Source: a virus
Reading direction: 5' to 3' (one strand)
Virus record (IMG/VR): IMGVR_UViG_3300013093_004065
Span: 1-22,422 of that record
DNA: 22,422 bases
The position numbers and the translations under genes are program-made. Of this stretch, positions 26 to 18,656 are shown in pieces. Each line of letters starts with the position of its first letter. Positions within the stretch are counted from its first letter, which is position 1. Below the pieces are notes generated by a model. The model saw nothing but the letters and a program-made list of their open reading frames with translations. It had not been told where the DNA came from and did not search any database.

Positions 26-1678
26 ATGATTACAGTTGTAAAACGTAATGGTGAACGAGTACCACTCGACATCAGCAAAATACAGAGACAGGTAGCACAC
101 GATTGTAAGGGCATTGATGGAGTGAGCCCCAGTATGATCGAAATCAAGGCCCAGATAGAACTACATGATGGCATGAGCACTAAAACCATAGACGAGCTCT
201 TGCTCAAGGCCATGGTGGACCTCATAGACGAAACAGAAAATCCAGAAATCAACAATGTAAACTATCAGTATGTGGCTGGGCGTCAACGTGTGAGTATGTT
301 ACGCAAAGAAGTCTACGGCGAGTATGATCCTCCCAAGTTGTATGACATCATCAAGACCAATGTGTCAGCAGGTATGTATACAGCAGAACTATTAGATTGG
401 TACACAGAAGATGAGTGGAACATCATCGACTTGTTCATAGATCATACCAAGGACGAAGAATATACCTATGCCGCTATAGCACAATTAGCAGAGAAGTATC
501 TGGTGCAGAATCGTGCCACGGGACAGATCTACGAAACACCACAGGTACGTTATGCTGTGGCAGCCGCCACAGCCTTCCATGCTGAACCAAAAGATCGGAG
601 ATTAAAATATGTTAAAGAATATTACGAGTGTGCCTCAGATGGACACTTTACTCTTGCAACACCAGTATTGGCTGGGTTGGGCACTACCACTAAGCAGTTT
701 TCAAGTTGCGTACTTATCAGCTCAGATGACACGTTGGATTCTATATTTGCCGCAGGAGAAATGATGGCCAAGTATGCTAGCAAACGTGCTGGCATAGGAC
801 TAGAGATTGGCCGTATACGTCCTCTCGGCGCCCCTATACGCAATGGAGAGATCAAGCACACAGGTATGATACCATTCTTAAAGAAATGGTTTGCCGATCT
901 TCGTTCATGCTCACAAGGTGGTATCCGTAATGCATCATGCACAGTAACGTTTCCTATATGGCATGCTCAGTTTGAAGACCTTATCGTGCTGAAAAACAAT
1001 CAAGGCACCGAAGAGACACGTGTCCGCCAGATGGACTACTCAGTGGTAGTCAACAAGATGTTCTGGAATCGCTATCGACTGGGCCAGGACATAACTCTGT
1101 TTGATCCACACGAAGTTCCAGACCTGTACGAAGCCTACTATAGAGACAGCCAGGATTTCGAGCAGTTGTATCTAGAATATGAAACACGCACAGACATACA
1201 TAAGAAGGTGTTGTCAGCTGAAGAAATGTTCAAGAATGGCATCTTGAAAGAACGTACTGATACGGGACGTATCTATCTGGTCAATATCGACAATGTGATC
1301 AATCAAGGACCTTTTGATACCGCAACTGATCCAATCTATCAGAGTAACCTGTGTTTAACTGGCGATACCACGATTCAAATCATGAATACAGATGATACTG
1401 TTCAATCAATATCTCTTGCCAGCTTTGTTGAACTATATGAATTTGGAGCAATGACCGGTGTTAAAGTTAGAAGTTCGGATATTTCAACAGGCGCTGTTAC
1501 TTGGAATACGGTAAGTGACGCGGCCAAAACCGCTACAGTAACAGAATTAATCGAAATTGAAGATGAATCGGGTAAAATTATTAGATGTACACCTGATCAC
1601 CAAATATATACAAAGAATCGTGGATATGTTAAAGCCAGCGAGTTATTAGAAACAGACGTGTTATGTGTAGAAAGTTGA
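26..1678 (+). CDS. nrdA: Ribonucleotide reductase alpha subunit, N-terminal part, fused to N-half of a split intein
   Basis: This gene encodes the first 442 residues of the class Ia ribonucleoside-diphosphate reductase large subunit, followed by a 108-residue intein half. The enzyme makes dNDPs for phage DNA synthesis. An ATP-cone begins at the N-terminus (VVKRNGERVPLD). Cys228 in KQFSSC corresponds to the reducible active-site cysteine C225 of E. coli NrdA. The extein stops at YQSNL, immediately before the position of the catalytic thiyl-radical cysteine (E. coli C439), and intein Cys1 (residue 443) follows. The stop after LCVES is therefore the end of the N-intein and not a nonsense mutation. 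The ATG at 26 has AAGG six bases upstream and gives the normal NrdA N-terminus. Function needs protein trans-splicing with the product of 2652-3752, giving a mature protein of about 774 residues. The family and intein assignment is firm; splicing activity is inferred. Confidence 0.95.
   Translation: MITVVKRNGERVPLDISKIQRQVAHDCKGIDGVSPSMIEIKAQIELHDGMSTKTIDELLLKAMVDLIDETENPEINNVNYQYVAGRQRVSMLRKEVYGEYDPPKLYDIIKTNVSAGMYTAELLDWYTEDEWNIIDLFIDHTKDEEYTYAAIAQLAEKYLVQNRATGQIYETPQVRYAVAAATAFHAEPKDRRLKYVKEYYECASDGHFTLATPVLAGLGTTTKQFSSCVLISSDDTLDSIFAAGEMMAKYASKRAGIGLEIGRIRPLGAPIRNGEIKHTGMIPFLKKWFADLRSCSQGGIRNASCTVTFPIWHAQFEDLIVLKNNQGTEETRVRQMDYSVVVNKMFWNRYRLGQDITLFDPHEVPDLYEAYYRDSQDFEQLYLEYETRTDIHKKVLSAEEMFKNGILKERTDTGRIYLVNIDNVINQGPFDTATDPIYQSNLCLTGDTTIQIMNTDDTVQSISLASFVELYEFGAMTGVKVRSSDISTGAVTWNTVSDAAKTATVTELIEIEDESGKIIRCTPDHQIYTKNRGYVKASELLETDVLCVES
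1352..1675 (+). other. N-terminal half of split intein (NrdA site)
   Basis: The 108 residues after the extein begin with Cys1 in block A (CLTGDTTIQI) and carry block B with the TxxH motif (CTPDHQIYT), followed by NRGYVKASEL. These are the Hint-fold splicing motifs of an N-intein. The segment is more AT-rich than the flanking nrdA sequence. Its length and its end match the N-halves of split inteins described from fractured phage genes in marine metagenomes. No endonuclease domain lies within it; an endonuclease gene follows as a separate reading frame. Confidence 0.93.
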
Positions 1679-1711
1679 TTACTAACATAAATAGTATTAC
1701 AGAGACTAATT

Positions 1712-2659
1712 ATGTATAAACAACTTTATAAAGAAATTATTGATATTGCCAAACTAGAGAAGCGAAAGAAAAGTTCTGGAGTGTATTATGAATTACATCA
1801 CGTTGTTCCAGAATTTATGTTTAAGAGTAGGAAAAGAACAGGTCCAGCTGGCCACTTAGATGGTAATCCTAATTCAGTGGATAATCTTGTACTATTAACT
1901 TTTCAAGAACATCTAATGGCGCATTATTATCTATATGAGATATTAAAAGATACACGATACGGATACTCAGCCGGGTCAGCATTACAATTTTTCTTTATTA
2001 AAGCAACGGGTAGTCATATTAGACAACGCACATTATCCAAAGTTGATAAAGAATTTCTAGATAAAATGGCTCATTTACGCGAGATTGGGATTGCAAGTAT
2101 TTCAAAAGCACGAACTGGGAAGATGCCAGTTGTTGATGCCATTACTAGAGAAAAAATTGGGTCAATGCCGGTAAACCATCCAAGAGTGTTATCGGGGGAG
2201 TGGGTTCACCATAGTAAAGGAGTGAAGCAAACTTGGGAATCTCGATCCCAAGTCGGAGAAAATAATGGAAATTATAAAGAAATGACAGCCCAACATTTGG
2301 ATCGTATTTTTCAATGCGTTGGAAAATCATTAATAGATGATACGCATTTTTCTGTTAAAAACTTTTCAAAAAATATTAAACTTGAATTTACTGAATTTAG
2401 AAAAATATCAATCAAGTGGGTAATGAATAATCTGTCTTCAATTGAAAACTTAGTTGCTCAATATAATCACAGAATGAATACTAATATAGTGTATGATCCC
2501 TATTATCGAAGTGCCTCGCAAAGAAGCAAGGCATCTATACAGAATCAAATGTATGCTTGGGTAACTGATGGAACCAAAGATTTACGAATATTAAAAATTG
2601 ATATGAGTGATTTCTTAAATACAAATACAGAATACAAAAATGGAAGAATAAATGCTTAA
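1712..2659 (+). CDS. HNH homing endonuclease lying between the two halves of the split intein
   Basis: The 315-residue protein has an HNH core near its N-terminus: H29-H30 in YELHHVVP, then N58 in SVDNLVLLT, H67 and H71 in FQEHLMAH. This is the usual phage pattern HHxxP...NLVxLTxxEHxxAH. The C-terminal two thirds are basic and not recognised; they probably bind DNA. The gene sits exactly between the N-intein and C-intein genes and overlaps the C-intein gene by 8 bp, so it occupies the place an internal endonuclease domain has in a contiguous intein. A late-promoter-like ATAAATA lies in the 33-bp gap upstream (about 1687-1693). Composition is clearly AT-richer than nrdA. It probably cleaves intein-less nrdA alleles and drives homing of the whole insertion; this is inferred from position. 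Confidence 0.85.
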   Translation: MYKQLYKEIIDIAKLEKRKKSSGVYYELHHVVPEFMFKSRKRTGPAGHLDGNPNSVDNLVLLTFQEHLMAHYYLYEILKDTRYGYSAGSALQFFFIKATGSHIRQRTLSKVDKEFLDKMAHLREIGIASISKARTGKMPVVDAITREKIGSMPVNHPRVLSGEWVHHSKGVKQTWESRSQVGENNGNYKEMTAQHLDRIFQCVGKSLIDDTHFSVKNFSKNIKLEFTEFRKISIKWVMNNLSSIENLVAQYNHRMNTNIVYDPYYRSASQRSKASIQNQMYAWVTDGTKDLRILKIDMSDFLNTNTEYKNGRINA

Positions 2660-2753
2660 GATAAAAAGAATTACCGTAGAACCGACTGATGTTTATGATA
2701 TTACTGTGCCAGAAACTGAATGTTTTTTTGCTAATGACGTATTGGTCCATAAT
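2652..2753 (+). other. C-terminal half of split intein (NrdA site)
   Basis: The 34 residues contain block F (VYDITVPETECFFAND) and block G (VLVHN), with the terminal Asn that cyclises and the penultimate His. Cys35 follows as the +1 nucleophile. The small size and independent Met start are typical of natural split inteins. It must pair with the N-half encoded at 1352-1675. Confidence 0.93.
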
Positions 2754-3752
2754 TGCCAAGAGATCCTACTACCAACCAGACCTTTCCAACGTATTGAAGA
2801 TCCGGCGGGACGCATAGCGTTATGTACACTGGGATCTATCAACTGGGGTGCTTTCAATAATCCACAGCAGATGCGCAAGGCCTGCCGTGTGTTGGTACGC
2901 AGTCTTAGTAATCTACTGCAATATCAAGACTTCTTGTCAGTACAGAGCAAGCTGGCCAATGAAGACTTCGAACCACTAGGAGTGGGTATTACCAATCTAG
3001 CCTATTGGCACGCCAAGCGTAGTTTCAAATATGGAACATCCGAAGCACTCGCCGAAGTCAAGCGTTGGATGGAACACCAGGCCTACTTCCTTACCGAGAT
3101 GAGTGTAGAACTTGCCCAAGAAAGAGGGGCCTGTAAGCGTAGCGAATACACACACTACGGTAAGGGAGTATTCCCCTGGGAACGCCGCTCTGCCGGTGTT
3201 GACGAACTCGCAGACTTCACACCAGTGATGGATTGGGAACCTCTGCGTGAGCGTATGAAGCAGTATGGTATCCGTAATGCCACACTCATGGCCGTGGCTC
3301 CTGTAGAATCCAGCTCAGTTGTTCTAAACTCTACTAATGGTATCGAGATGCCAATGGAGATGATATCTGTGAAAGAATCTAAAGCAGGATCATTCGTCCA
3401 GGTAGTGCCAGAGTATCGCCGACTGAAGAATCGCTATCAGCTCATGTGGGAACAGACAGATTGTGTAGACTATCTCAAGACAGCCGCTGTGTTGGCTGCC
3501 TATATCGATCAGAGTATAAGTACTAATACATTCTATTCGCCGGCGCATTTTGCAGGTGGTAAAGTTCCGGGAACTCTAATCGCTAAGAATTTGATGCTGG
3601 CCTATAAATGGGGTCTGAAGACAATTTATTACTCACTTATAAACAAGGTTGGTTCTAAAAATGTATTAACTACTCAAACTGATAGTTTAGTAAGTGTTGA
3701 ACCTGTTACAATATACGAAGACGACGAAAATTGCGAGGCCTGCAAGCTCTAG
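2652..3752 (+). CDS. nrdA: C-half of split intein fused to ribonucleotide reductase alpha subunit, C-terminal part
   Basis: Residues 1-34 form the C-intein, ending in VLVHN, and Cys35 is the +1 extein residue. After splicing it restores NLCQEI, equivalent to N437-L-C439-x-E441 of E. coli NrdA, so the splice nucleophile is also the catalytic radical cysteine. Cys58 in IALCTL matches E. coli C462, the partner of the redox pair. Tyr326-Tyr327 in KTIYYS are the radical-transfer tyrosines (Y730/Y731). The C-terminal CEAC (361-364) is the swinging dithiol reduced by glutaredoxin, with shorter spacing than in E. coli. The start at 2652 overlaps the endonuclease stop and has GGAAG just upstream. The last 220 bp or so are AT-richer than the rest, next to an inserted endonuclease gene. 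Confidence 0.94.
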   Translation: MLKIKRITVEPTDVYDITVPETECFFANDVLVHNCQEILLPTRPFQRIEDPAGRIALCTLGSINWGAFNNPQQMRKACRVLVRSLSNLLQYQDFLSVQSKLANEDFEPLGVGITNLAYWHAKRSFKYGTSEALAEVKRWMEHQAYFLTEMSVELAQERGACKRSEYTHYGKGVFPWERRSAGVDELADFTPVMDWEPLRERMKQYGIRNATLMAVAPVESSSVVLNSTNGIEMPMEMISVKESKAGSFVQVVPEYRRLKNRYQLMWEQTDCVDYLKTAAVLAAYIDQSISTNTFYSPAHFAGGKVPGTLIAKNLMLAYKWGLKTIYYSLINKVGSKNVLTTQTDSLVSVEPVTIYEDDENCEACKL

Positions 3753-10002: not shown

Positions 10003-10006
10003 CTAA
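9998..10006. repeat. Left 9-bp inverted repeat flanking the HNH gene
   Basis: TTCGACTAA here has its exact reverse complement TTAGTCGAA at 10491-10499. The two enclose the HNH coding region almost exactly. A further related GGTTTCGAC lies at 10523-10531. The repeat includes part of the T-loop-like sequence, so the pair may mark element boundaries. Confidence 0.45.
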
Positions 10007-10482
10007 GCCTGTTTTACCATAAACCCACCATTTGTGACACTACCTCTTAAACAAGCGTTTCCAAAGTTGTTAGGATTATAGCCTCGGTCTAAACACCATT
10101 GGCGTAATCCTTCAACTGTTTCAGTAGTACCATCTGGGTGTGTAATCTCGTATAGTTTACCGTTCCAAGTTTTCTTGCCCTTACCTGCCCTTACTTCTTT
10201 CATCTTCTTACTAGCCCTAGCTCTTTGTTCTGGATCTTTCCAGCGAAGATTAGATTTTGCCGCACCTTTACGGCCTCCCTCTATCATAGACTGTTTTGCG
10301 GCATCAAAATTAGCATCAAGTTTAGCCAATCCTTGCCAGGCAACATAGTCCTGCCAGTTGCCGTGTTGTTCATATAGTAGTCGGTGTGCCTCGGCGTGTT
10401 GCTCTATAGTTAGTTCAACTAGATTAGAAGGATCGTCTGACCCGCCTAGGTACTTTGGAACGATGTGATGTTTATGTAGCAT
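10003..10482 (-). CDS. HNH homing endonuclease, antisense, next to the tmRNA
   Basis: This 159-residue protein begins with the HNH signature MLHKHHIVPKYLGG, SNLVELTIEQHAEAH, in which paired His, Asn and His residues form the beta-beta-alpha metal fold. A basic middle part (KKMKEVRAGKGKK) follows. The C-terminal domain (LYEITHPDGTTETV, then LRQWCLDRGYNPNNF) is a DNA-recognition module common in phage endonucleases. The ATG at 10482 is preferred because the fold starts there; longer in-frame starts at 10533 (ATG) or 10542 (TTG) would add residues encoded by an inverted repeat and the tmRNA promoter. No clear ribosome binding site is seen. Its stop codon directly abuts a tmRNA T-arm fragment, so its target is probably the tmRNA gene. 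Confidence 0.85.
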   Translation of the reverse strand: MLHKHHIVPKYLGGSDDPSNLVELTIEQHAEAHRLLYEQHGNWQDYVAWQGLAKLDANFDAAKQSMIEGGRKGAAKSNLRWKDPEQRARASKKMKEVRAGKGKKTWNGKLYEITHPDGTTETVEGLRQWCLDRGYNPNNFGNACLRGSVTNGGFMVKQA

Positions 10483-10490
10483 AATATTAT

Positions 10491-10499
10491 TTAGTCGAA
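10491..10499. repeat. Right 9-bp inverted repeat flanking the HNH gene
   Basis: TTAGTCGAA is the exact reverse complement of 9998-10006. Overlapping it, GTCGAAACC (10494-10502) is inverted relative to GGTTTCGAC at 10523-10531, so it can also form a hairpin around the -35 element of the tmRNA promoter. Confidence 0.45.
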
Positions 10500-10514
10500 A
10501 CCGAGTAAAAACTC

Positions 10515-10543
10515 TTGACAATGGTTTCGACATACTATACAAT
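10515..10543 (+). promoter_or_regulatory. Strong sigma70-type promoter of the tmRNA
   Basis: TTGACA (10515-10520) and TACAAT (10538-10543) lie exactly 17 bp apart. Transcription would begin near 10550, just before the acceptor piece. The flanking inverted repeat GTCGAAACC/GGTTTCGAC encloses the -35 and might be an operator or a homing remnant. Confidence 0.7.
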
Positions 10544-10606
10544 AAATACTTATATGATTGTATGAAGTGGATTGAAACGGGTCTTGGACGCGAGTTCGAA
10601 TCTCGC

Positions 10607-10648
10607 CATCTCCACCTAAGTGTATCGAGGTATATTTAGGTGGGGATG
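10607..10648 (+). other. Extended hairpin across the tmRNA permutation junction
   Basis: CATCTCCACCTAA (10607-10619) pairs with TTAGGTGGGGATG (10636-10648) over 13 bp with one G-U pair. The acceptor stem is thus continued by six more pairs into the intervening segment, closed by a 16-nt loop. This would hold the precursor together before end processing cuts out the spacer. Confidence 0.75.
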
Positions 10649-10751
10649 AATTTGGTTTTCGACAGGGTCAAGAGTAATGAAATGGACAGTCCGGCAATGT
10701 AGAAGCCGTTAGGGTTGGGGGAACTCGGCCGAAGACACAAATAACGTAAAC

Positions 10752-10784
10752 GCCAACGACGAACAGTTCGCATTGGCAGCCTAA
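10752..10784 (+). other. tmRNA tag-peptide reading frame
   Basis: The frame reads ANDEQFALAA followed by TAA. The preceding in-frame codons GTA AAC could extend the tag to VNANDEQFALAA, because the resume codon cannot be fixed by eye. The ending ALAA is the standard degron for ClpXP and ClpAP. The form ANDExFALAA is typical of betaproteobacterial tags. Confidence 0.9.
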
Positions 10785-10825
10785 ACACTGCCTAGGGTAG
10801 GAAATACCTCGTAACAGAAACCACC

Positions 10826-10852
10826 AAAAAGCGGCTATTATGGCCGCTTTTT
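10826..10852 (+). terminator. Rho-independent terminator of the tmRNA
   Basis: AAAAAGCGGC and GCCGCTTTTT form a perfect 10-bp stem around a seven-base loop, ending in the T-run. It lies right after the coding piece and closes the tmRNA transcription unit. Confidence 0.9.
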
Positions 10853-10936
10853 CATAGGTGTAATCTCATATAGGATATATAATATAGAATATATCTTAAT
10901 CTAAAAGATGTATCATAACAAAAAGGAAATCAAATC

Positions 10937-11672: not shown

Positions 11673-12140
11673 ATGTCTATCACAATTAAAAATCTAGAGA
11701 GTGCGCTGGCGGGTGAGAGCCAAGCTCACATCAAGTACCGCTACTTCGCCCGGATCGCTCGTGAAGAAGGATTTGAAGAAATCGCACAGCATTTTGAGCA
11801 CACTGCAGATCAAGAACTCAAACACGCTTGGGGTCATTTGGAACTGTTGATAGGTAAACCAACAACCAAAGAATGTTTGGAAAAAGCCATCGAAGGTGAG
11901 ACCTATGAGTTTACCACGATGTACCCAGAATTTGAAAAGAATGCTGTATTGGAAGGTAACCATGAAGCTGAAAAAGAAATGCAAGATCAGATCGCAGAAA
12001 GCCAAGAACATGCAGAACAGTTTATCGCGGTCCTACGCAAGGCCGAAAAACGTTTCGCCGCACTGAAAAAAGTGGAAGAGCGTCACGCCCGTGCCTATGA
12101 AACAAAATTACAAGATTTATTACAAACGGAGACAAGATAA
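11673..12140 (+). CDS. Rubrerythrin (ferritin-like diiron protein)
   Basis: This 155-residue four-helix protein has the rubrerythrin pattern [32 protein letters not shown] (ExxH), then [29 protein letters not shown] and [11 protein letters not shown]. These supply most of the carboxylate and His ligands of a diiron peroxidase centre. The second ExxH is imperfect, with Glu-x-x-x-His spacing. The usual C-terminal rubredoxin domain is absent and is encoded by the next gene, which starts inside the stop codon (TAATG). The pair should reduce hydrogen peroxide in the cytoplasm. It may protect the diiron-tyrosyl NrdB or the infected cell from oxidative damage, which is inferred. A strong AAGGAGA precedes the ATG. 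Confidence 0.9.
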
Positions 12141-14481: not shown

Positions 14482-14886
14482 ATGCAGGGCAGTATCACAC
14501 TGGTCACCCCACCTGATATTTTTGAAAACTCCAATGCCAGCATCTTGTTTGTGCATCTAGATGATGCTGGACAGGATCTAGTAAGCCGTTGGCTAAAGAC
14601 CAGTAGTCTAGATGAAGATATCAATATCTATGTCTACAACGGAGAAACCAATATAGCTTGGTTTTTGTACGCACTGAATCGATGCGAATATAAGTATATA
14701 AATGTAGACGGAGCAAATGATATATCACGAGCCATCATGGGCTATGCTGTAGGCAAGAGCGGTATCTGTTATGAAACACGAGATAAAAATATCGCTGCCG
14801 TATATAGCCACATCAATCCCAATCGTGTAAGATCCGTTGATGAATTTTTAGAAAGGGCATTCGGTGAGCAAACAACTAAATCATAG
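14482..14886 (+). CDS. Small acidic protein of unknown function
   Basis: This 134-residue protein is not recognised. It has an alpha/beta character (ASILFVHLDDAGQDLVSRWL, INIYVYNGETNIAWFLYALN, YKYINVDGANDISRAIMG) and no signal peptide or membrane span. It begins two bases after the membrane-protein stop and overlaps the clpX start by 23 bp, so translation is coupled. It could be an adaptor or partner for the ClpX encoded next, but that rests on position alone. Confidence 0.7.
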   Translation: MQGSITLVTPPDIFENSNASILFVHLDDAGQDLVSRWLKTSSLDEDINIYVYNGETNIAWFLYALNRCEYKYINVDGANDISRAIMGYAVGKSGICYETRDKNIAAVYSHINPNRVRSVDEFLERAFGEQTTKS

Positions 14887-16096
14887 CTGTCATTTCTGCG
14901 GTAAGAGCAAAGAGGATGTAGAAAAACTCATCGTGGGAGACAACTCCAGTATCTGTAATGACTGTGTGGTACTGTGTGTCAACATCTTAGAAGATGAAAA
15001 GATCAAGAAGTTTCCAGCAGACAAGATCACTGTGAACCCTACCCAGTTGAAAGATTATCTAGACGACTACGTGATAGGACAAGATGAAGCCAAGATTTCC
15101 CTGTGTGTAGCAGTGGCACAGCATTTCAAACGCATCAATAATCCCAGCAAGAAGATCAGATTGGAAAAGACCAATGTGCTCATGCTGGGACCCACAGGCT
15201 GTGGCAAGACCATGATGGTGCGCAAGATAGCCGAATACTTAAATGTACCTTTTGCCATCTGTGATGCTACAGGCATAACCGAAGCGGGCTATGTGGGCGA
15301 CGATGTGGAAAGCATACTCAACAGATTGATCTCAGCCGCTGACGGAGATCTGGACAAGGCCGAACGTGGCATCATCTATATAGACGAGATAGACAAGATC
15401 GCTCGCAAAGGTGAAAATGTCAGCATCACCCGAGATGTATCAGGTGAGGGAGTACAACAGGCTCTGCTGAAAATGATCGAAGGCAGTATCATGCGAGTGC
15501 CTAGCACAGGAAAACGCAAGCATCCCGGTTCTGATATGCAGGAAATCAACACCGAAGGAATCTTGTTTATCTGTGGAGGAGCCTTCGTCGGTCTAGATAA
15601 GATCATAGAAGAGCGTCTCAATAAACGCAGTATTGGGTTCTCGTCATCATTGACCACTACCCAGACTCCAGATGATGTCTATAGATCAACCACTACCAAA
15701 GACATCATCAAGTTTGGATTTATTCCGGAATTCGTAGGTCGTTTTGGTCTAACAGTATCAGTCGATGAGTTAGGCACGAAAGAATTGGTAAAGATCTTAG
15801 TAGAACCCAAGAACAGCATCATCAAACAGTATCAATACATCTTTGAACTGGACAGCATCGATTTAGAATTTGAAGATACAGCCCTAGAAGAGATAGCACA
15901 GCAGGCCAAGGCCCTGAAGACCAATGCTCGTGGACTTAAAAACATCATAGAAAAGACCCTGCTTCCCTATCAATTTGATGCTCAAAACCTAGTTGCACGT
16001 GGTTTAACCAAAATAGTAGTAAATAAAGACACAGTAAATGGCAGTCCAGCTGTCATGGTATTCGACAAAAAAGCAAAGATCAATGAGCAGAAATAA
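14864..16096 (+). CDS. clpX: ATP-dependent unfoldase ClpX
   Basis: This 410-residue, full-length ClpX unfolds tagged proteins and feeds them to ClpP. It has the N-terminal zinc-binding domain (Cys9, Cys12, Cys31, Cys34), Walker A GPTGCGKT (109-116), pore-1 loop GYVGDD (142-147, with Tyr143), Walker B IIYIDEID (170-177), the RKH loop (218-220) that engages ssrA-type tails in E. coli, the IGF loop (257-259) that docks on ClpP, the arginine finger in GFIPEFVGRF and sensor-2 Arg356. No ClpP gene is visible, so it would use the host protease. The start is GTG at 14864, inside the end of the preceding gene. A tmRNA encoded 4 kb upstream makes the ALAA tags this enzyme should recognise. Confidence 0.95.
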   Translation: MSKQLNHSCHFCGKSKEDVEKLIVGDNSSICNDCVVLCVNILEDEKIKKFPADKITVNPTQLKDYLDDYVIGQDEAKISLCVAVAQHFKRINNPSKKIRLEKTNVLMLGPTGCGKTMMVRKIAEYLNVPFAICDATGITEAGYVGDDVESILNRLISAADGDLDKAERGIIYIDEIDKIARKGENVSITRDVSGEGVQQALLKMIEGSIMRVPSTGKRKHPGSDMQEINTEGILFICGGAFVGLDKIIEERLNKRSIGFSSSLTTTQTPDDVYRSTTTKDIIKFGFIPEFVGRFGLTVSVDELGTKELVKILVEPKNSIIKQYQYIFELDSIDLEFEDTALEEIAQQAKALKTNARGLKNIIEKTLLPYQFDAQNLVARGLTKIVVNKDTVNGSPAVMVFDKKAKINEQK

Positions 16097-16422: not shown

Positions 16423-17163
16423 ATGATCCCAAAGCAATTATTGAATTCTACAGGAATCCATCGGACACACGATACCTATCAAAATATGCTCGATCACTAT
16501 AGGGCATTACGAAACCCGGAACTTTTAGAAAAAACAATTAAAACATTAGAGACAGAACTTAACTATCCCTTTTATAGATTTTTCAGTAATTATGGTACCG
16601 GTATCGGCGAAACTATGGAAGAAGTCTCTGCCCAAAAATTTATAGACATTATTCCAAAAAAAGATGGTAAGAAAAAATCCAAAGTATATGAAAATTATAA
16701 CAAACAGCATAATAAAAAATCTAGCAATTATGATTTTTTATTTGTAAAAGATGGAATAATTAAAAGTGGAGAAGCTAAAGTAATACGAGCCGCTGAAAGT
16801 AAGCCAGTACAAAATAATAAAATTTACGAACTACCTTCATCATTAGAAGAACGAGCTTTAACTTATTCTGAAAAAAATAAATCCGGAAATCAATCATTTC
16901 AGCAAACTAAAGCAGAACTATTTGATTATTTACTAGGTATTGTAATATATGCAGATCAGGTTGATTTTTATTTGGTACCATCTGATGATATCAAATCTGG
17001 AAAACTTAAGATCATCAATCAACATGCAGGTGCTATTTTAGAAGATGGGAGTACTAATGAAGGCCATTTATCTGTTAAAGATTTAGACTCTTATAAAATA
17101 TTATCAGTGTATTCTGAAAAAGAATTACTAGAGGCTGATAGCATTAATAAATATATTTCATGA
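16423..17163 (+). CDS. Probable type II restriction endonuclease
   Basis: The 246-residue protein contains a PD-(D/E)XK-like nuclease core: Asp104 in NYDFLFV and Glu117-x-Lys119 in GEAKV, with the hydrophobic strands expected around them. It overlaps by four bases an N6-adenine methyltransferase gene, the usual layout of a type II restriction-modification system. The specificity is not recognised. Composition is very AT-rich, unlike the genes on either side, pointing to recent transfer. It has its own consensus promoter. On a phage it could cut competing phage or host DNA lacking the methyl mark. The family call rests on motif plus context. Confidence 0.78.
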   Translation: MIPKQLLNSTGIHRTHDTYQNMLDHYRALRNPELLEKTIKTLETELNYPFYRFFSNYGTGIGETMEEVSAQKFIDIIPKKDGKKKSKVYENYNKQHNKKSSNYDFLFVKDGIIKSGEAKVIRAAESKPVQNNKIYELPSSLEERALTYSEKNKSGNQSFQQTKAELFDYLLGIVIYADQVDFYLVPSDDIKSGKLKIINQHAGAILEDGSTNEGHLSVKDLDSYKILSVYSEKELLEADSINKYIS

Positions 17164-18656
17164 CAGTTACTTTTAAAGACCTTAATAAAAAGAAAAATCA
17201 ATTAGGTCAATTTATGACTCCGGATGTTATATCACAAGTTATGATAGATAATAATACATACTCCGGTCTTATAATTGAGCCCAGTTTTGGTCTTGGATCT
17301 TTTTTATACAAATTAGAGTCAAAATATCCAAAAAATATTAAGATAGGTATCGAATACGATCCGGAATTGTTTGATCAGTATACTGGATCATCAACTGTGC
17401 TAAACCAATCATTTTATCAATTTCAAATTCCAAAAAATATTAAATTTGATTCAATATCATTTGTTGGAAATCCCCCATATAGGACTCCAGCTTATTCACT
17501 TAAAAGTGAAGATAAAGATCTAATTAAGGAATTAGTTAAAAAATACAAACTAACAGGAGTAAAAGAAGAAGCAATTTTTTTTATTGCGTATGCTGTTAGT
17601 CTTATTGAACAAGCAGATGTTCCTGGGGTTATTCATTGGATATTGCCTAAAACAATTTTTGAAAACAGCAGTAAAGCATTTACTAATTTTAGAAAATTTT
17701 TGAATATACATGCACCGGTTATCGAAATGATCGATATATCTGAGAATTATCCAGATGTAGCACAACCGTTATGTATTGCTAAATTTTTAGTGAATCAAAA
17801 AACAAATACAAACTTAACTGATTCTTTTATATTAAAAGATACTATTACATTTCAAGAAATTTTTATTAAAACGTCGCTAGGTAGTGTTCCTTGCGAAAGT
17901 ATATTGCTCTCATGTAAGGACGAACCATTGTCTAGTTTTAAAGAAAGACTTGAGAATATTTTTCAAAAAAACATCAATATTCGAACTGAATTAAAATATA
18001 ATGGAAAATATCATCTACGAGCACTTAGTGGATCATCGGCTACAGAAAAATTTAAAATTTTAGATTCCTATGTTTCTGAAATAAAAAATACCATCAATGT
18101 TTCTGATTTTTCAAATGACGCTTATTATAAGCCTATTTCTCATAGAACAGAAGTCCGTTGGTATTTTAGACATCCCGGATTGACTAAGGTTAGTTTTATA
18201 TATATAATAAATCCTAATCCAGGTAAATCTTTTTACTTTCCTGGAAATCCTACAAAAACATCAACTGATTATTTTGGATATTGCGAATATGATATAAATC
18301 GAAATAGTAGCCCCGGAGCGAATAGAACTGTTTCTATAGAAAATATTGAAAAAAATATTACTCCAAAATTTAAAAAGTTTTGGCAAGAAAATACAACAGC
18401 GCCGATAACCGAAATTTTTAATTATATATTACATATTAGCAAAAGTAGTTGGTATAAAAATTATAAGTCAAAATATCAAAGATTTTACTTTGGAATACCA
18501 AAAACTTTTGACACCTCTTGGAAACCAGAATTAAATAAATCTTGCCTTAACTGGGATAGTATTATTGAACTAACTGCTTCAGAAATTATTATTTCTACAG
18601 AGCAAACATCTATCAATCTTTTAAATTCTCTTTTCATCGAAGAATATTCTTCTTGA
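17160..18656 (+). CDS. N6-adenine DNA methyltransferase (gamma type, type II R-M)
   Basis: The 498-residue enzyme has motif X-like LGQFMTP (residues 15-21), motif I EPSFGLGS (40-47) for S-adenosylmethionine binding, an acidic motif II residue in IEYDP, and catalytic motif IV NPPY (104-107). This is the gamma order with a C-terminal target-recognition region of about 300 residues. It methylates adenine in an unknown sequence and protects DNA from the nuclease encoded upstream. The start at 17160 overlaps the nuclease stop (ATGA), so translation is coupled; expressing the nuclease first is unusual but seen in some systems. It is as AT-rich as its partner. The next promoter overlaps its last codons. 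Confidence 0.92.
   Translation: MTVTFKDLNKKKNQLGQFMTPDVISQVMIDNNTYSGLIIEPSFGLGSFLYKLESKYPKNIKIGIEYDPELFDQYTGSSTVLNQSFYQFQIPKNIKFDSISFVGNPPYRTPAYSLKSEDKDLIKELVKKYKLTGVKEEAIFFIAYAVSLIEQADVPGVIHWILPKTIFENSSKAFTNFRKFLNIHAPVIEMIDISENYPDVAQPLCIAKFLVNQKTNTNLTDSFILKDTITFQEIFIKTSLGSVPCESILLSCKDEPLSSFKERLENIFQKNINIRTELKYNGKYHLRALSGSSATEKFKILDSYVSEIKNTINVSDFSNDAYYKPISHRTEVRWYFRHPGLTKVSFIYIINPNPGKSFYFPGNPTKTSTDYFGYCEYDINRNSSPGANRTVSIENIEKNITPKFKKFWQENTTAPITEIFNYILHISKSSWYKNYKSKYQRFYFGIPKTFDTSWKPELNKSCLNWDSIIELTASEIIISTEQTSINLLNSLFIEEYSS

Follow-up and report, generated by a model that had tools for sequence, protein, structure and literature searches.

Our analysis identified a complete circularly permuted (two-piece) tmRNA gene, including promoter and terminator, at positions 10515-10852 of a stretch of phage DNA of 22,422 bases (the window, which is an entire IMG/VR virus record), and, on the same strand, a gene for full-length ClpX, the unfoldase that recognises the tags a tmRNA adds to unfinished proteins. 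We consider it probable, at roughly 0.7, that this is a working phage-borne two-piece tmRNA whose tagged products are read by ClpX, including the phage's own copy. What can be seen in the sequences is the tmRNA anatomy, its conservation with compensatory change, an intact ClpX and the absence of SmpB in relatives. Phage tmRNAs tend to be recorded as curiosities with no pathway attached; the companion ClpX gene is less expected here than the tmRNA itself. One and the same phages carry the writer of a tag (the tmRNA) and its reader (ClpX, often with ClpP), their order being conserved and SmpB absent, and this pairing suggests a testable purpose for the tmRNA in ribosome rescue and the clean-up of broken proteins during translation takeover.

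ARAGORN reported a single permuted tmRNA at 10525-10875 on the forward strand with the tag ANDEQFALAA. The betaproteobacterial subtype model beta_tmRNA (RF01850) was matched by cmscan over its full length at 10501-10854, with 128.4 bits (E 3e-39) against a gathering score of 84, and tmRNA_permuted (RF04321) was matched at 10556-10784 with 105.7 bits (E 5e-20) against a gathering score of 47. The alignment and the sequence place the 3' acceptor piece 5' of the coding piece and the covariance-model matches extend across both pieces, which was the check proposed with the original prediction that the phage encodes a permuted tmRNA equipped with a promoter and a terminator of its own; together with the IMG/VR virus record and a promoter and hairpin scan these matches bear that prediction out, gene order included. 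It had also held that the acceptor strands GGGGATG and CATCTCC pair completely and that the terminal CCA is not fully encoded, and both points agree with what we observed, as seven of seven pairs form, with pair 3.70 a G.U rather than a Watson-Crick pair, and CC only is encoded with T as the next base. A G3.U70 acceptor pair is an identity element for alanyl-tRNA synthetase, and the window tmRNA carries both G3.U70 and A73, giving it a tRNA(Ala)-like acceptor end. Its tag frame closes with a stop codon and the tag has the ClpXP degron end ALAA. The two acceptor strands and the intervening sequence are predicted to fold into one 19-bp precursor hairpin with a 4-nt loop (10607-10648), which is far more stable than shuffled sequences (MFE z-score -6.9). 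The promoter is the best-scoring of the region and is also covered by the RF01850 alignment. The terminator scan listed 10826-10852 on the minus strand only, because on the plus strand the T run pairs inside the stem, and the terminator is possibly bidirectional. Coordinates are collected in Table 1.

Table 1. Features of the permuted tmRNA gene and of the companion ClpX gene in the window
Feature	Position	Strand	Evidence or remark
Sigma70-type promoter TTGACA-N17-TACAAT of the tmRNA gene	10515..10543	+	11/12 consensus matches, near-consensus
Acceptor piece	10556..10616	+	cmscan alignment, sequence
T-arm (T-stem/loop)	10590-10606	+	cmscan alignment, sequence
3' acceptor strand CATCTCC	10607-10613	+	cmscan alignment, sequence
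A73 C74 C75	10614-10616	+	A76 not encoded; next base T
Intervening sequence, 25 nt, presumably removed on maturation	10617..10641	+	
Coding piece up to tag stop (5' acceptor strand, then mRNA-like part)	10642..10784	+	cmscan alignment, sequence
5' acceptor strand GGGGATG	10642-10648	+	cmscan alignment, sequence
Tag reading frame ANDEQFALAA-stop	10752..10784	+	ARAGORN, sequence
Coding piece, 3' part beyond tag	10785..10825	+	cmscan alignment to beta model
Hairpin terminator AAAAAGCGGC-N7-GCCGCTTTTT	10826..10852	+	perfect hairpin, ends in T5
ClpX, full length, 4 kb downstream of tmRNA	14864..16096	+	Pfam, PDB alignment E 3e-119, motifs

The window ClpX contains the zinc finger, an AAA module with Walker A and B motifs and pore loops, the RKH loop and the IGF loop for ClpP. 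In E. coli ClpX the ssrA tag is contacted by Y153, V154, T199, V202, R228 and H230 (PMC7652416), and all six residues are kept in the window protein. We infer transcription, processing, charging, tagging and the part of the phage ClpX in degradation of the products from the known tmRNA pathway, on which these steps rest. Under its own promoter the tmRNA would be transcribed as one precursor, from which host RNase P and 3' processing enzymes would excise the intervening sequence, with the CCA-adding enzyme supplying the last A of the acceptor end. Host AlaRS would charge the RNA through G3.U70 and, together with host SmpB and EF-Tu, the phage tmRNA would free ribosomes that stall in the course of infection, perhaps on host transcripts that are being broken down, adding A-ANDEQFALAA to the broken proteins. 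The ALAA-ended tag would then be read by ClpX and the tagged products would go to ClpXP, which the phage would reinforce with its own ClpX and its relatives also with ClpP. A phage-supplied tag-and-degrade pathway that borrows host SmpB is the likeliest of the readings considered.

A scan of viral contigs gave 80 ClpX loci, of which the 50 longest records were analysed. A permuted tmRNA above the Rfam cut-off was found in 36 of these 50, in every case (36/36) on the clpX strand and upstream of it at a distance of 2.7-17.5 kb, and several of the 14 tmRNA-negative records end just upstream of clpX by their coordinates. ClpP was present in 19/50, and among the ten ClpX contigs of at least 150 kb nine had ClpP, eight had the tmRNA and seven had both. 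No SmpB was found in the 50 contigs, in a search that detected its positive controls, and when ten phage-collection records were included only Lak-A1 had SmpB. The nearest long relative of the window (141 kb, with a ClpX 91% identical to that of the window) has a canonical ClpP (E 4e-72 to a solved ClpP) that seems to keep the Ser-His-Asp triad and sits among metabolic-type genes; a role as head-maturation protease is not favoured there for these reasons, and phage G has a ClpP-like head protease beside ClpX. The genes for ClpP and ClpX are separated by tens of kb and therefore do not form an operon; in the window itself, a 22-kb fragment, no ClpP was seen. In the large phage contigs L063, L064 and L065, which keep ClpP and have no tmRNA, the RKH loop of ClpX is deleted.

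Relatives selected by nrdB rather than by ClpX (n = 19, many of them fragments) carried the tmRNA in 11 cases and ClpX in 4, so that the tmRNA appears to belong to the phage clade with ClpX as a frequent companion. The isolates X1, Marzo and DLP_6 likewise have the tmRNA and no ClpX. A comparison of 36/50 with 11/19 did not establish a statistical coupling of the tmRNA with ClpX beyond the clade, and since relatives have the tmRNA without a nearby ClpX the linkage may reflect shared ancestry of the neighbourhood. Outside this group a tmRNA of either form was found in four of six ClpX-bearing complete phage genomes (permuted in Phosso, standard in G, Lak-A1 and LR756511), with none above the cut-off in Callisto and Atu_ph07. 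The record of Acinetobacter 'phage' MD-2021a, with the gene order tig-clpP-clpX, was excluded because it seems to be bacterial DNA.

These distributions bear on the strongest alternative, to which we give slightly less than an even chance, namely that the tmRNA is functional and tops up host ribosome rescue while ClpX serves other tasks such as replication, virion assembly or the degradation of host proteins, the two genes being linked by inherited gene order. Its probability overlaps that of our preferred explanation because the function of the tmRNA is shared and only the role of ClpX differs. It fits with the several relatives and isolates that have a tmRNA without ClpX, with a tmRNA-clpX distance of at least 30 kb in Phosso and phage G, with the fact that ClpX has other substrates and with published conjectures that phage ClpX acts in replication or in the assembly of virions (PMC6102473, PMC11242549, PMC7824862). 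It is less easily squared with the presence of tmRNA in four of the six outside genomes and with the fate of the tag-reading H230 (E. coli numbering; H220 in the phage ClpX), which is kept in 37/37 tmRNA-bearing contigs, window included, yet lost in 4/14 tmRNA-negative ClpX contigs, although the losses count as one or two events because in the tree they fall in one clade and one single change. As H230 is lost only in contigs without tmRNA, tag and ClpX may co-evolve. An extension of our preferred reading is that the phage tmRNA writes a phage-specific degron read by the phage ClpX, with phage ClpP where present, and that only SmpB is borrowed; we regard this as speculative, at about one chance in three by our reckoning, and if true it would bring proteolysis of stalled products during infection under phage control.

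Conservation of the tmRNA was assessed in 37 distinct phage genes from IMG/VR relatives and isolates. A structure count on a MAFFT alignment (A1) was dropped because the 5' acceptor strand was out of register between genes with short and long intervening sequences, and was replaced by per-sequence stem measurement. All seven acceptor pairs form in each of the 36 tmRNAs whose acceptor was resolved, which represent 11 stem haplotypes, with changes on both sides at pairs 2.71, 4.69, 5.68 and 6.67 and with G3.U70 in all 36. As the first selection rule favoured G.U the picking of acceptor sites was repeated without this bonus, and 36 of the 37 still gave seven of seven pairs. When strands were swapped between stem haplotypes full pairing was obtained in only 9/110 combinations. 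The tags are variable in the middle and 35 of 37 end in L/M/I/V-Ala-Ala (LAA 25, MAA 5, IAA 4, VAA 1, other 2), the terminal Ala-Ala being the most important part of the tag for ClpXP (PMC7652416). From the compensatory stem changes, the invariant G3.U70 and the (L/M/I/V)AA tags the gene has, at the level of sequence, the pattern of a selected gene that is maintained, and it probably works. Together with the ClpX proteins that accompany them, these naturally varied tag ends (LAA, MAA, IAA, VAA) also offer material for studies of degron recognition.

This conservation weighs against two further explanations. One is that the phage RNA acts as a decoy, tying up SmpB or AlaRS and thereby blocking trans-translation in the host, for which there is precedent in a proposal for the tag-less RNA of mycobacteriophage DS6A (PMC4131195, PMC11915505); a decoy requires no tag, yet the tag frame and degron end are kept across the 37 distinct genes, and we think it improbable. 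The other, a chance-acquired and unused copy of host ssrA such as an attachment-site relic, is suggested by the frequent use of ssrA as an integration site by temperate phages (PMC9004378) but is the least credible of all, given that the gene is complete and has both promoter and terminator, that its compensatory changes from phage to phage contradict disuse, that the tmRNA has the same position in many phages and that no integrase was seen in the 22-kb window.

The T-loops of related phage tmRNAs (L091, L100, L107, L109 and others) are of the TTCGA type or of the alpha type GGCRGTR, and some relatives with this T-loop of the alphaproteobacterial model yet score best with the beta model. The halves of the tmRNA (10556-10830 in the window) have a mosaic look, the coding part of the window gene being 92% identical to that of L148 and the acceptor part only 78%. 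L114 and L109 have a tag in common, but their acceptor stems and their intervening sequences are not the same.

The resemblance of the tag to betaproteobacterial tags had been read as a sign that it probably originated in the host and could serve to predict it, an idea for which we found no support. Bacterial matches to the window tmRNA were sought by tag only; the tag ANDEQFALAA occurs on 17 bacterial-genome contigs, for the most part from Rhodocyclaceae, Limnobacter and Pasteurellaceae, and 16 of them have a one-piece tmRNA. The seventeenth, a 3 kb contig of a gammaproteobacterial MAG (L218, CAIMTR010000195.1), has a permuted tmRNA with five tRNAs and a glycosyltransferase-like frame and is most likely a phage piece misbinned into the MAG. 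The tags of sister phages differ, and that of the nearest long relative is ANASNDEVYALAA. As a guide to the host the tag is therefore of little use, since the bacteria that share it mostly have the one-piece form and the nearest long relative does not share it.

The permuted gene had further been called rare on a phage; that it is a phage gene stands but its rarity does not, as phages with two-piece tmRNAs have already been published, with 53 of 133 distinct phage tmRNAs two-piece in a 2022 survey (PMC9004378), and the form is present in Menderavirus and in dozens of related contigs. The current tmRNA database holds 79 bacteriophage sequences (PMC11915505), tmRNA and SmpB have been described in huge phages (PMC7162821), and phage ClpX and ClpP are known with suggested roles in replication, virion assembly and takeover (PMC6102473, PMC7824862, PMC11242549). 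In the open-access literature we found no paper linking phage tmRNA with phage ClpX, although one may exist.

The window gene resembles the betaproteobacterial permuted tmRNA (RF01850) in gene order, short intervening sequence, T-arm, ANDE-FALAA-type tag, promoter region and full-length model match, and differs from it in lying on a phage contig and in the variation of tags among sister phages. Marine methylophage Melnitz and other phages (PMC9004378) likewise have a permuted tmRNA and no integrase seen; the Melnitz RNA is however of alphaproteobacterial type and associated with a glutamine riboswitch, whereas the window carries a beta-type RNA that is preceded by a sigma70-like promoter and has ClpX encoded 4 kb downstream of it. 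The Stenotrophomonas phages (Menderavirus Marzo and kin, vB_SmaS-DLP_6) and Xanthomonas phage X1 are the closest isolates by tmRNA as well as by NrdB (X1 61.5%, Stenotrophomonas Menderavirus phages 54%). They share the permuted tmRNA and G3.U70, and in Marzo and X1 the tmRNA lies near nrdA/nrdB, but unlike the window they have no ClpX and their tags end in -RIAA, -AIAA or -RYA. The Marzo tmRNA is annotated in its record and that of X1 (L201, OQ427096.1 121009-121337) is unannotated, its tag having -RYA instead of -LAA at the end. Jumbo phages Atu_ph07, Phosso, AP-J-162, G, Lak and Callisto also encode a full ClpX, about 42-52% identical to that of the window. Phosso, G and Lak-A1 also have a tmRNA, Lak-A1 with SmpB in addition; in these jumbo phages the tmRNA is absent or far from clpX.

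The neighbours of the tmRNA are of phage type and include ribonucleotide reductase (nrdA with an intein, nrdB), homing endonucleases, a CHAP-domain protein, a phrog_255 exonuclease and a phage metallophosphoesterase. A bacterial chromosome fragment was ruled out by the virus record, these phage-type genes and viral relatives of up to 353 kb. An HNH homing endonuclease (phrog_655; 10003-10542, minus strand) lies divergent and directly upstream of the tmRNA promoter, and in phage Marzo an HNH gene is likewise found just upstream of a tRNA-tRNA-tmRNA run. The nrdA gene (26-3752) is seemingly fractured by a split intein, with N-extein and N-intein at 26-1678 (SNL|CLTGD), a free-standing endonuclease-like frame at 1712-2659 and C-intein (DVLVHN|CQEI) and C-extein at 2652-3752, a layout which we take to resemble the 'fractured gene' arrangement of phage split inteins. 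Two adjoining frames at 16423-18656, of which the second weakly matches a DNA methyltransferase (phrog_3820), could from their sequence be a phage-borne restriction-modification pair, and a rubrerythrin/ferritin-like protein is encoded at 11673-12140.
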